Below are positions 1 through 4,627 of a stretch of 27,645 nt of DNA, piece by piece (positions within the stretch are counted from its first letter, which is position 1; the number at the start of each line of letters is the position of its first letter). The notes beneath the pieces were generated by a model. That model was not told the DNA's origin. It saw only the letters and a list, made by a program, of their open reading frames with translations, and ran no database searches. This DNA comes from a virus: the IMG/VR virus record IMGVR_UViG_3300034272_000490, positions 1-27,645 of that record; one strand, 5' to 3'. The position numbers were made by a program, and so were the translations under genes.

Positions 1-134
1 CCTACTACGACGGATACGGCAAGCTTGTGTGGGCTGATGGTAGGATTCGCCCCGGCTTCCAGCACTGTTCCACTAGCACTGGTCGCCTTAGCTGTACACA
101 ACCAAACCTGCAGAATGTTAGCAAAGGAGAATGA
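1..134 (+). CDS. DNA polymerase I-family (family A), N-terminal part, 3' end only
   Basis: Frame 3, open at the left edge, with in-frame codons from base 3 and a TGA stop at 132-134. The 43 visible codons contain the family A signature TGRLS..PNLQNV, which lies in the palm just before motif A and helps hold the primer-template. The protein then stops after Ser-Lys-Gly-Glu, where a normal polymerase would run through a short loop into motif A. The missing motif A, O-helix and motif C are encoded by the gene at 315. This piece therefore looks like the carboxyl end of a separate subunit that would carry the thumb and any 3'-5' exonuclease domain, which lie outside the window. That the two parts assemble into one enzyme is inference. 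Identification as family A polymerase is firm. Confidence 0.88.
   Translation, partial: YYDGYGKLVWADGRIRPGFQHCSTSTGRLSCTQPNLQNVSKGE
123..129 (+). promoter_or_regulatory. Ribosome binding site inside the end of the polymerase N-part
   Basis: AAAGGAG lies six bases before the ATG at 136, inside the last codons of the polymerase N-terminal gene. It fixes the start of the 59-aa ORF at 136 rather than at the ATG at 25, which would read through the polymerase in another frame. It also shows that the split is equipped for separate translation. Confidence 0.7.
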
Positions 135-135
135 A

Positions 136-315
136 ATGAAATATGTGCCAATGACTGATGATGAGTTGTTTCATATTGTGCGCAATCATGCCACTGGTAG
201 CGTTGAGGAGCTTCGGGCTATTGAACGGGCTGTTCTAGCGCGTCTGCCAAAGACTGTTGAGCCGATTATACAAAGTCAGCAATATAACGATGAGGTTTAT
301 AAGGAAAAGGCGTAA
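136..315 (+). CDS. Small hypothetical protein (59 aa) between the two polymerase parts
   Basis: I do not recognise this protein. It has a good ribosome binding site (123-129), starts one base after the polymerase N-part stop codon, and ends with TAA sharing a base with the ATG of the polymerase C-part (TAATG at 313-317). It is soluble-looking and mostly helical by composition, with a Glu/Arg/Leu-rich stretch at residues 20-40 (SVEELRAIERAVLARL). There is no cysteine pair, membrane segment or nuclease motif. Its placement suggests it was inserted into the polymerase gene, splitting it, or that it arose in the gap. It could be a linker or clamp between the halves or simply a moron-like gene; the sequence does not decide. 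Confidence 0.65.
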   Translation: MKYVPMTDDELFHIVRNHATGSVEELRAIERAVLARLPKTVEPIIQSQQYNDEVYKEKA

Positions 316-1145
316 TGAGTAGGATTAAGGAATGCTTCACAACACGCTTTGAGAACGGCAGCATTGTCAATGCCGACTTCTCTCAGCTAGAGGTAGTTGG
401 ATTGGCTATCCTATCCCTAGACCAACAGCTGATTGACGACATTAAATCAGGTATGGACATGCACATCGTTCGAGCTGCTAAGCTGTTTAACATTGCGGAA
501 GACAAGGTGACTAAGCAACAGCGCCAGCTTGCAAAGATGCTGAGCTTCCAGTTGCAGTATGGCTCAGGAGCTAGGAATATGTCTGAGCAGAACAAGATTC
601 ACATTAACGTGGCAAAGAAGTTTATCGAGCAATACTATGAGAGGTACAAAGATGTTAAACGATGGCAAGAGCACGTCAGAGAGAGTGTCGTATCTTCTCG
701 CAGAGTTGACGGGCATACTAAAAGAGGCTACCCCAGAGGAACTGGAACATACCGAAGCCCGTCTGGAAGAGCTTATACGTTTTATGAATACGACCCTATG
801 GGAGATTGGCAGAAAGAAGCCAGCTTCTCCCCTACGGAAATGAAGAACTACCCCTGCCAAGGCTTCTCCACTGGTGATGTCATGGCGTTGTATCGGGGGC
901 AAGTGATGCGCCAATTGATGCCTGAGATGTTTATAAACATCTTGTTTATCAATAGCGTACACGACAGTGTGATGTTTGACTGCCGTGATGAAGAAAGTGT
1001 TGCAAAGTGTGTAGAGGTGTTGTATAATATGTGTAAGGAGCTTCCAATGCTTCTTACCAAGCGGTTCGGAATTGAAGTGCCGTTGGAGTTTAACATTGAT
1101 GTAGAGACTGGCTCATCGTGGGCTAACTTAACTAAGAGGAAATAA
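315..1145 (+). CDS. DNA polymerase I-family (family A), C-terminal catalytic part
   Basis: This 276-aa protein is the catalytic half of a family A polymerase. Motif A is at residues 20-28 (ADFSQLEVV, metal ligand Asp21). Motif B, the O-helix that binds the incoming dNTP, is near residues 69-81 and fits RxxxKxxxFxxxYG. Motif C is VHDSV at 215-219, with metal ligand Asp217. Both catalytic aspartates are therefore on this piece, while the preceding thumb and TGRLS region is on the gene ending at 134. The start is well placed: ATG at 315 directly precedes Ser-Arg-Ile-Lys-Glu-Cys-Phe, the usual beginning of the strand into motif A, and purine-rich AAGGAAAAGG lies just upstream. Alone it lacks the template-binding thumb, so it probably needs the N-part. 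The reading frame is the same as that of the N-part. Confidence 0.93.
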   Translation: MSRIKECFTTRFENGSIVNADFSQLEVVGLAILSLDQQLIDDIKSGMDMHIVRAAKLFNIAEDKVTKQQRQLAKMLSFQLQYGSGARNMSEQNKIHINVAKKFIEQYYERYKDVKRWQEHVRESVVSSRRVDGHTKRGYPRGTGTYRSPSGRAYTFYEYDPMGDWQKEASFSPTEMKNYPCQGFSTGDVMALYRGQVMRQLMPEMFINILFINSVHDSVMFDCRDEESVAKCVEVLYNMCKELPMLLTKRFGIEVPLEFNIDVETGSSWANLTKRK

Positions 1146-1573: not shown

Positions 1574-1782
1574 TGTCTGTAACAGTATATGATGATGGTT
1601 ACTATCAGGTACGTTCCCATCCTGATAATTTTAACAGCAGGAACAGGTTCGAAGTGTGGAACATGGCTACTAACTCGAAGCTTGGGGAGTTTTTTATGAC
1701 TGGTGAGTTTCTAATGTCGGCTTCGACTTTAGAATTAGACACCCTTCTGAAAGCTCGGCTCAAAGAATTTGGAGTGCTATGA
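1573..1782 (+). CDS. Hypothetical protein (69 aa)
   Basis: Not recognised. The ATG shares a base with the stop of the ssDNA-binding-like gene (TAATG) and its own TGA overlaps the start of the exonuclease gene (ATGA at 1779-1782), so it is almost certainly translated with its neighbours. It is Tyr/Asn/Phe-rich at the start and has a predicted helix near the C-terminus (Leu-Glu-Leu-Asp..Leu-Lys-Ala-Arg-Leu). No membrane segment or metal motif is visible. A small replication-module protein of unknown role. Confidence 0.7.
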   Translation: MSVTVYDDGYYQVRSHPDNFNSRNRFEVWNMATNSKLGEFFMTGEFLMSASTLELDTLLKARLKEFGVL

Positions 1783-2507
1783 AAGCTCTTATTGACGGTG
1801 ACATTCTGGTGTATAGCTGTGGCTTTGCCTCAGATGCTGCCGCCAAGGAGCAAGGCATTGAAGCAGAGCCTGTAGAGTTTTGCCTTAACGGTGTTAAGGA
1901 AACAATTAGGAGCCTCTGTGAAGCTACAGAGGCGACTGATTACATCATCTTCCTGACTGGCAAGGACAACTTCCGATACAAGGTGAGCCCTGACTACAAG
2001 GCAAACCGCAAGGATGCTGCCAAGCCTTACCATTACGACTCTGTGCGGAGATATTTGCAAGACCATCATCCGTGTACTGTTAGTGATGGGGAGGAAGCAG
2101 ACGATGAACTAGGGCGCTTCCAAGTAAATGCTGAACCAGCTAGTACAGTAATTATCTCTAAGGATAAAGACTTAGACATGATTAGGGGTTGGCATTATAA
2201 CTGGAGCCCGAAGAACAAAGAGAAAGGTATGTACTTCACCAGTGAGATTGATGGGCTACGTTTGTTCTACAAACAACTCATCACTGGTGATGCTACAGAC
2301 AACATCTCTGGTGTTTATCGTCTGTTTGGGCGGAAGGCTACAAAGGGATTGCTTGAGCCATTAGATGACATGAGGAATGAGCGTGACATGTTCCAGTATG
2401 TTCTGGATGAAGCCTACAATGGCGACATTGACCTGATGGACAGGCAAGCAAAACTTCTGTGGATTAGAACGAATGAAACATGGGAAGAGCATTTTTCCAA
2501 ACTTTAG
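1779..2507 (+). CDS. 5'-3' exonuclease (T5/T7-type FEN, PIN-like fold)
   Basis: A 242-aa flap endonuclease/5'-3' exonuclease that removes RNA primers or flaps or degrades host DNA, working with the polymerase. All family motifs are visible: metal-binding LIDGD (Asp6, Asp8), the conserved basic stretch NFRYKVSPDYKANR (64-77) that contacts DNA, the acidic cluster GEEADDE (104-110), SKDKDLD (127-133) and the helix-3-turn region ITGDATDNISGV (168-179) with Asp171 and Asp174. Length fits single-domain phage FEN proteins. Start at 1779 overlaps the upstream stop (ATGA) with GGAG four bases before it. Family A polymerases in cells carry this activity as an N-terminal domain; phages typically encode it separately, as here. 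Confidence 0.92.
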   Translation: MKALIDGDILVYSCGFASDAAAKEQGIEAEPVEFCLNGVKETIRSLCEATEATDYIIFLTGKDNFRYKVSPDYKANRKDAAKPYHYDSVRRYLQDHHPCTVSDGEEADDELGRFQVNAEPASTVIISKDKDLDMIRGWHYNWSPKNKEKGMYFTSEIDGLRLFYKQLITGDATDNISGVYRLFGRKATKGLLEPLDDMRNERDMFQYVLDEAYNGDIDLMDRQAKLLWIRTNETWEEHFSKL

Positions 2508-3382: not shown

Positions 3383-3687
3383 CAGACAAAATGCCAGCTG
3401 CAAAGTTTCCGCCGTGGGGATACCTGCCTAATGAACGAGCAGACCTTCCAATGCATGAGCACCAGCCTGATATGGTGAATAGTCCTCCACACTATCGGCA
3501 AGGCGGCATCGAATGTATTGACGCAATCGAAGCTATGCTTTCTAAGACAGAGTATCAGGGCATGCTCAAGGGCAACATCCTGAAATATCTGTGGCGTGAG
3601 AACTACAAAGGCCGTCTTGAGAGTCTCAAGAAAGCCCAATGGTATCTAAACAAACTTGTGGAGTCGTATGAAAATCCTTCTACTTGA
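3379..3687 (+). CDS. DUF3310 protein (T7 gp1.7-related domain)
   Basis: Starts at the ATG that overlaps the HNH stop (ATGA at 3379-3382), giving 102 aa; an upstream in-frame ATG at 3334 lies well inside the HNH gene and is less likely. The core SPPHYRQGGIECIDAIEA, then a helical LKGNILKYLWR and a closing KKAQWYLNKL, is the DUF3310 signature. In T7 this domain occurs in gp1.7, a nucleoside monophosphate kinase, so a role in the phage nucleotide supply is possible but not demonstrable from the domain alone. The 30-residue N-terminus is proline-rich and variable. Its end overlaps the next gene by 20 bases. Confidence 0.85.
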   Translation: MTDKMPAAKFPPWGYLPNERADLPMHEHQPDMVNSPPHYRQGGIECIDAIEAMLSKTEYQGMLKGNILKYLWRENYKGRLESLKKAQWYLNKLVESYENPST

Positions 3688-4411
3688 CATTGAGACATCA
3701 CCACACAGCGTGTATGCGTGGGGCTTGTTCAAGCAAAACATTAGCTTGAGCCAAGTGAAAGATACAAGCCGTGTGCTATGCTCTGCATACAAGTGGCTTG
3801 GGGAAAAGAAGACACACTTTACGTCTGAATGGACAGATGGTGTTGACGGCATGTTGGAAAACATGTATAATGTAATTGAGGAGGCAGATGCAATCGTTAC
3901 CTACAACGGGAACCGATTCGACCTACCAACCCTCAACAAAGAGTTCTTGCTAACTGGATATAGTCCACCTGCTCCCTACAAAAGCGTTGACCTATATCGT
4001 ACCGTTAAAAACAAGTTTAGGTTTGCAAGTAACAAACTAGACCACGTTGCACAACAGCTTGGACTAGGCAGTAAAACCGACCACTACGGGTTTCAGATGT
4101 GGCTTGATGTCATGGACGGCAACAAGAAAGCTCAGAAGCTAATGGAGACTTACAACAAACAAGACGTAGTTTTATTGGAGAAAGTGTATGACATTGTTTT
4201 ACCTTGGATTGCTAATCATCCTAATCGTAGCCATCACAGCGGTAGTGCTGTATGTCCAAACTGCGGTTCAGAGCACTTACAACATCGAGGATTTGCTATC
4301 ACCTCCGTGGGAAGACAGCAACGCTTCCAGTGTCAAGACTGCGGCAAATGGAGTAAAGCCTCAGAAAGCTGTGAGAAAACCCCGAAAGAAAACCGTATCA
4401 ACTCAATCTAA
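3668..4411 (+). CDS. DEDDy 3'-5' exonuclease (RNase H-like) with C-terminal zinc ribbon
   Basis: A 247-aa nuclease. Exo I is LLDIETSP (Asp7, Glu9), Exo II NGNRFDLPTL with Asp85, and Exo III YNKQD with Tyr162 and Asp166, the DEDDy arrangement of DnaQ-fold exonucleases. A four-cysteine zinc ribbon follows: CPNC (196-199) and CQDC (222-225). The start at 3668 is preferred over the in-frame ATG at 3656 because GGAG lies four bases upstream and Met-Lys-Ile-Leu-Leu-Leu-Asp is the normal beginning of the first strand. It may serve as a proofreading exonuclease in trans, process DNA ends or act on structured DNA. Another ORF overlaps its last 224 bases. Confidence 0.87.
   Translation: MKILLLDIETSPHSVYAWGLFKQNISLSQVKDTSRVLCSAYKWLGEKKTHFTSEWTDGVDGMLENMYNVIEEADAIVTYNGNRFDLPTLNKEFLLTGYSPPAPYKSVDLYRTVKNKFRFASNKLDHVAQQLGLGSKTDHYGFQMWLDVMDGNKKAQKLMETYNKQDVVLLEKVYDIVLPWIANHPNRSHHSGSAVCPNCGSEHLQHRGFAITSVGRQQRFQCQDCGKWSKASESCEKTPKENRINSI
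4177..4180 (+). promoter_or_regulatory. Internal ribosome binding site for the overprinted ORF
   Basis: GGAG sits seven bases before the ATG at 4188, inside the exonuclease gene. Both motif and spacing are good, which supports translation of the +1-frame ORF at 4188-4433. Confidence 0.4.
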
Positions 4412-4433: not shown

Positions 4434-4627
4434 AAACCAAACAAACCAAAATCCAAAAGCTCATCAACGCTCTGCGTAAGCGTAACCTGACTGTCCGTGA
4501 GATTGCCTCTCGCTTCAGCGTCCCGAATGTGTATGCCATCATCGACGACATCCGCAAGGTGCACAACCTGAACGTGCAGCGTACCACAACCCGTACAGGC
4601 ATCACAGCCTACCGTCTGGTTGCATAA
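4430..4627 (+). CDS. Small helix-turn-helix protein (65 aa)
   Basis: A basic 65-aa protein with an N-terminal Lys/Arg-rich helix (about 1-19), then a helix-turn-helix reading LTVREIASRFSVPNVYAIIDDIRK (20-43), and a C-terminal beta-hairpin-like part rich in Thr and Arg (RTTTRTGITAYRLV), as in a small winged helix. Such proteins typically bind DNA as regulators or recruit replication factors. The start overlaps the stop of the ORF at 4188-4433 (ATGA) and AAAGGA lies upstream. The DNA-binding role is inferred from the fold; no operator was found in the window. Confidence 0.7.
   Translation: MKTKQTKIQKLINALRKRNLTVREIASRFSVPNVYAIIDDIRKVHNLNVQRTTTRTGITAYRLVA

Follow-up and report, generated by a model that had tools for sequence, protein, structure and literature searches.

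Results

A family A DNA polymerase gene in two pieces

The window, by which we mean the whole stretch of 27,645 nucleotides analysed here (IMG/VR virus record IMGVR_UViG_3300034272_000490, positions 1 to 27,645), opens inside a gene for a family A DNA polymerase (PolA) that is divided into two neighbouring genes, referred to below as the N-part and the C-part, with a small open reading frame (ORF) between them (Table 1). The N-part is read in frame 3 from bases 3-131 to a TGA at 132-134. Its translation in the window is YYDGYGKLVWADGRIRPGFQHCSTSTGRLSCTQPNLQNVSKGE, with the C-terminal end TGRLSCTQPNLQNVSKGE, that is, PNLQN-VSKGE and then the stop. The small ORF has an ATG at 136 preceded by AAAGGAG and encodes 59 residues; no stop interrupts its frame upstream as far as base 1, and 136 is the likely start. 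Its stop, which ends at 315, overlaps the ATG of the C-part in a TAATG. The C-part has 276 residues and its own stop at 1143-1145, and it begins with MSRIKECF, followed by motif A.

The Pfam domain DNA_pol_A (PF00476, 381 positions) matches in two pieces, at positions 92-132 in the N-part (E-value 1.2e-8) and 140-380 in the C-part (2.1e-37), and a single loop is absent between them. All three motifs fall within the C-part: motif A is DFSQLE, the motif B region reads RQLAKMLSFQLQYG and motif C is VHDS. With the DNA_pol_A domain and the TGRLS..PNLQN region they mark the product as a family A DNA polymerase. A prior reading of the window, made from the sequence alone, had described a family A polymerase split just before motif A, with a protein-coding insert at the break and the later catalytic motifs intact in the second gene, and our coordinates and motif assignments bear this description out. 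In relatives the complete N-parts are 380-410 residues long and pair a putative 3'-5' exonuclease domain with the initial portion of the polymerase domain. Complete N-parts have DLETS-type starts and the N-part of Vibrio phage ICP2 matches PF01612; the N-part of the window's group is linked to the exonuclease domain only through phrog_9556 and phrog_17, and that of the window itself is truncated. The PHROGs families phrog_9556 (N-part only) and phrog_2573 (C-part only) match the two halves.

The same break recurs in related phages

We compared the locus with other viral contigs (the L-numbered loci) and, besides these, with isolate relatives. The polymerase is split at the same point, which we call site 1, in about 20 of these contigs and isolates, including the Vibrio phages ICP2 and VP41s3, which are the best isolate relatives; a nucleotide search of sequenced phages for close relatives found none. 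The closer relatives L004-L008, with C-parts 67-96% identical, are broken at site 1, as are the more distant L009-L012, L024, L027, L030-L035 and L059. In ICP2 the junction reads LQNISN and a stop, then an HNH gene, then MSDIKRCI; in VP41s3 it reads LQNLSN and a stop, then a small ORF unlike that of the window, then MSDVKKCI. Across these relatives the halves are kept as two independent genes, each with its own start and stop. Chance or sequencing error can be ruled out as the source of the break, since about 20 further contigs and isolates have this junction too. Nor are the halves two different proteins: as an end-to-end alignment of the kind proposed in the sequence-only reading reveals, unsplit relatives cover both halves and span the gap, with LQNISNNPIKQIF in L036-L060 and LQNIPRGDTSEVKKMF in L061-L088, K385, JSF7, R8W and others. 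That reading had also called the split site unusual, which we find it is not, as an entire group of Zobellviridae-like phages shares the site, ICP2 has it too, and the phages MEP401 and MEP402 are already published as having a split PolA and a small ORF (PMC10580990).

The junctions themselves bear on the idea that each chain carries half of a split intein and that protein splicing joins the two, an arrangement known from other phage polymerases and reported for PolB of MIJ3 (PMC6892783). The N-part ends five residues past PNLQN, the C-part starts M-S-R-I-K-x-C-F, and no relative has spare sequence. With no extra residues at either junction, a split intein is contradicted by the sequence and we discarded it; the chance that it applies is practically negligible.

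The gap varies in size and content

Site-1 gaps measure -1, 1, 3, 9 and 102-742 nucleotides. L007 has no insert: its N-part ends with AAAGGAGAGTAATGAGC, and stop and start overlap by 1 nucleotide in a TAATG, the final A of the stop also serving as the A of the C-part ATG. The gap is 1 nucleotide in L011 and L012, 3 in L009 and L010 and 9 in L035. The sequence CAAAGGAG within the last N-part codons may serve the small ORF in the window and the C-part directly in the insert-free L007. The longer gaps hold unrelated small genes that vary by lineage: the HNH gene in ICP2, a DUF551 gene in L030, several small ORFs without known relatives, and, between the polymerase halves of L034 (2272-2997), a nucleotidyltransferase-like gene (PolyA_pol head; phrog_1614, PF01743). 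Content varies even within the window's own group, where L005 has an insert ORF of the window's type, L004 has another type, and the insert ORF of L006 (5745-6000) is a mosaic whose first two thirds resemble L004 and whose last third resembles the window and L005. The 59-residue ORF is without a match in Pfam, PHROGs or NCBIfam and has only chance-level matches in the phage collection. A copy 74% identical to it, ribosome-binding leader included, lies away from polA at L183:3001-3180. We note that this copy sits beside unrelated genes and that a primase-helicase gene adjoins it on the other strand.

Since the content is lineage-specific, some members are insert-free and a copy of the ORF occurs elsewhere (L183), we conclude that small genes come and go in a pre-existing gene border. 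Since the gaps range from an overlap to 742 nucleotides and their contents are unrelated, the insert is neither the cause of the split nor an intron; it is an optional passenger, not what maintains the split.

The alternative raised in the literature takes the insert for an intron of group I (or another class) that contains a small ORF and splices itself out, so that one spliced message would encode a single polymerase, as suspected for MEP401 and MEP402 and implied by the joined coding sequence of ICP2. Phage polA genes are known to carry group I introns (PMC3428280), the ICP2 gap holds an HNH gene and its record a joined coding sequence, and in L059 the C-part contains a genuine group I intron (RF00028, 75.5 bits) at motif B (L059:3256-3517). 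However, Rfam searches of the window at gathering and permissive thresholds, and of 15 split loci at the gathering threshold, found no group I catalytic core or other match in the site-1 gaps, and the same run detects the L059 intron, which thus acts as a positive control; the site-1 gap of L059 itself is without an intron. Gaps of -1, 1, 3 and 9 nucleotides (-17 and -1 at the second break point described below) leave no room for an intron, yet the polymerase is still in two genes. A continuous protein was not seen in the insert-free members; L007, L009-L012 and L035 retain the stop and the start. The 59-residue ORF also occurs with its ribosome site away from polA. We therefore consider an intron, which the sequence-only reading had named as a possible refutation of the split, very unlikely. 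As a separate observation, L059 carries both kinds of interruption in one polymerase gene set, a site-1 split and a group I intron.

The short gaps also bear on stop-codon read-through or frameshifting, either of which would yield a single fused chain. The halves are in one frame in L009, L010 and L035, where a stop codon and 1-3 codons separate them. The frames of the N-part and C-part differ, however, in many loci (L007, L011, L005, L006, L001 and others), so read-through cannot be general, and the longer gaps are full of stops, the window gap holding 10 in the relevant frame. We regard a fused chain as extremely improbable.

Selection, polymerase complement and predicted fold

The ratio of nonsynonymous to synonymous substitution rates (Ka/Ks) is 0.09-0.21 for the N-part and 0.03-0.20 for the C-part; comparisons within the two insert ORF types gave 0.18 and 0.11. 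Purifying selection thus acts on all three ORFs. All eight sister genomes have one PolA, in two pieces that meet at profile positions of about 132 and 138 (132 and 150 in MEP401), and a search of these eight for PolB or the PolIII alpha subunit found no match. These results speak against the idea that the phage relies on another polymerase and that its split gene is decaying or has lost activity. That the halves are relics is conceivable in principle, and we found no evidence in support of this; both are under strong purifying selection, all catalytic motifs are kept, the split has been maintained over deep divergence, and the eight sister records hold no other polymerase of family A, family B or PolIII. 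A remnant is exceedingly unlikely.

In L010 the halves share a frame that only one TAA interrupts, and we modelled the read-through chain with AlphaFold. The linked-chain model has a mean predicted local distance difference test score (pLDDT) of 90.2 and a predicted template modelling score (pTM) of 0.86; its sole segment below a pLDDT of 50 is residues 379-383, the junction. Over its whole length it aligns to Bst/Klenow polymerase structures, with template modelling scores of up to 0.82 by target. The window C-part modelled alone has a pLDDT of 93.7. The two halves are thus predicted to share a common fold, and in the model the break sits in a loose loop between parts of that fold.

A second break point and the origin of the split

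In MEP401-type phages the polymerase is broken about 15 residues downstream of site 1, after FDGEIKTLFLSRYGE and before M-I-L-N-A-D-A-K-A-L-E-W. At this site 2 all of the related contigs examined (53/53) are split, and the gaps measure -17, -1, 26 and up to 635 nucleotides. The polymerase of MW202697 is likewise split near it. The MEP401 split PolA with its small ORF was published in 2023, and its authors suspected an intron (PMC10580990); this suspicion is weakened because relatives have overlapping stop and start codons.

In a tree of C-parts the split sequences form a paraphyletic belt, with weak support, between two contiguous groups; in a tree of the N-part and C-part together a single split clade is not rejected (approximately unbiased test, p 0.28). 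We dropped the claim of a single origin at site 1, given the weak support of the former tree and the compatibility of the latter with either outcome. The simplest reading is one origin at site 1 and a separate origin at site 2. It is possible that one ancestral split at site 1 was made, perhaps by a homing endonuclease that has since been lost except in ICP2-like phages; the same doubt whether an endonuclease made the split is on record for the 43A/43B polymerase genes of T4-like phages (PMC2988022).

Phage setting and neighbouring genes

The best matches of the window's TerL are those of MEP401/402, MW202697 and ICP2, at 56-57% identity, and from TerL and the replication genes we place this marine-type phage among Zobellviridae-like podoviruses. 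The window encodes a ribonucleotide reductase, two tRNAs, a 5'-3' exonuclease, an HNH protein and a separate exonuclease subunit. The last of these has a zinc-ribbon-like C-terminal stretch; the polymerase N-part of the group already carries an exonuclease-like domain. Directly after the polymerase, at 1148-1573, lies a gene for a 141-residue protein whose N-terminus matches phrog_18140 (unknown). The C-part of L005, L010 and L059 is followed by a similar gene as well, and the product is therefore a conserved replication-module protein, possibly one that binds single strands. Adjacent tRNA-Arg (tct) and tRNA-Thr (tgt) genes at 2686-2840, downstream of the 5'-3' exonuclease gene, are kept in L004-L006. 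In another phage contig, L032, positions 4475-4553 give a short transfer-messenger RNA match (66.3 bits over 79 bases; model 374 positions).

Table 1. Polymerase genes and replication-module features in the window
Feature	Position	Strand	Basis and remarks
Polymerase N-part, 3' end of gene	3..134	+	PF00476 92-132; ends PNLQNVSKGE, then stop; gene cut by contig start
Shine-Dalgarno-like CAAAGGAG, inside last N-part codons	122..129	+	Sequence; putative function
59-residue insert ORF, begins MKYVPMTDDELFHIV	136..315	+	Ka/Ks 0.18 when compared with the L005 copy; L183 has a 74% identical copy, not at polA
Polymerase C-part, rest of palm and fingers, motifs A, B and C	315..1145	+	PF00476 140-380; phrog_2573 (C-part-only family)
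5'-3' exonuclease gene, replication module	1779..2507	+	Pfam/PHROGs profile matches
RNase H-like exonuclease, phrog_403 'DNA polymerase exonuclease subunit', replication module	3656..4411	+	Profile matches

Discussion

We have found that the phage's only recognisable DNA polymerase, a replicative family A enzyme, is very probably encoded as two neighbouring genes whose chains assemble into one Klenow-like enzyme without splicing. Because relatives share the cut with no insert or with unrelated genes in it, the two-part arrangement is stably inherited and is due neither to an intron nor to a sequencing error. The first chain would supply the 3'-5' exonuclease, the thumb and the first palm strand up to PNLQN, and the second motif A, the fingers and motif C, the break falling in an exposed palm loop that may tolerate interruption. 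One message with separate starts would allow both chains to be translated and then to fold together; we infer that the genes are co-transcribed and co-translated and that the chains assemble and are active. The gap would be a site of turnover for small unrelated genes, of which the 59-residue gene is the window's occupant.

Several points weigh against this interpretation. The window's own N-part is truncated by the contig start. The AlphaFold model is of a linked chain and so is no measure of the affinity between two chains, and that both chains are produced and bind one another is something we infer. The trees, moreover, place contiguous relatives on two sides of the site-1 split sequences, although a single split clade is not rejected.

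Assembly of the two chains into one polymerase is most likely by analogy with the 43A/43B proteins of the T4-like Aeromonas phages 25 and 44RR, likewise a two-gene replicative polymerase; those of phage 25 co-purify and are active (PMC2988022). In one such phage an endonuclease gene separates the two genes, in another an untranslated spacer (PMC2988022). Unlike the window polymerase, 43A/43B belongs to family B, with a different fold and a different break. The Methylophilales phages MEP401 and MEP402 and their 'group I' relatives (PMC10580990) are related to the window phage; they are Zobellviridae-like, with a TerL 57% identical to that of the window, and also have a split PolA, but at site 2, and the intron idea of their authors is countered at both sites by the insert-free or overlapping members found here. 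The polA of ICP2 (NC_015158) has the same break as the window and a C-part 38% identical to the window's, but its gap holds the gp51 HNH endonuclease gene and not the 59-residue ORF. We note that the ICP2 record annotates polA as one joined coding sequence around gene 51 (NC_015158.1, 40112-42680); our analysis favours two separate genes. The group I introns in polA of SPO1, Pf-WMP3 and phiL7 (PMC3428280) resemble the present case in kind, as HNH-linked interruptions of a family A gene, but they are spliced from RNA and lie at other positions.

It is also conceivable, though we think it unlikely, that the split itself is selected, and that a two-chain PolA maintains a standing cassette gap whose swapped small genes are expressed alongside the polymerase, some acting on it as a third subunit. 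If this were so, the two palm-region break points with their exchangeable genes would be parallel inventions.

Split PolA is already known in kind; what is new is the site, its spread and the status of the insert as a passenger. Separating the stable split from the changing insert corrects the interpretation as an intron that stands in the literature and the ICP2 record. There is a warning for annotation as well, in that the N-only and C-only 'DNA polymerase' families in PHROGs are two halves of one enzyme. The break points offer natural split sites for building two-part DNA polymerases, and the relatives form a comparative set for testing whether homing endonucleases create splits and then vanish. 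Finally, our findings suggest that the palm of PolA, constrained as it is, can work as two chains across deeply diverged phages, and at two neighbouring positions.
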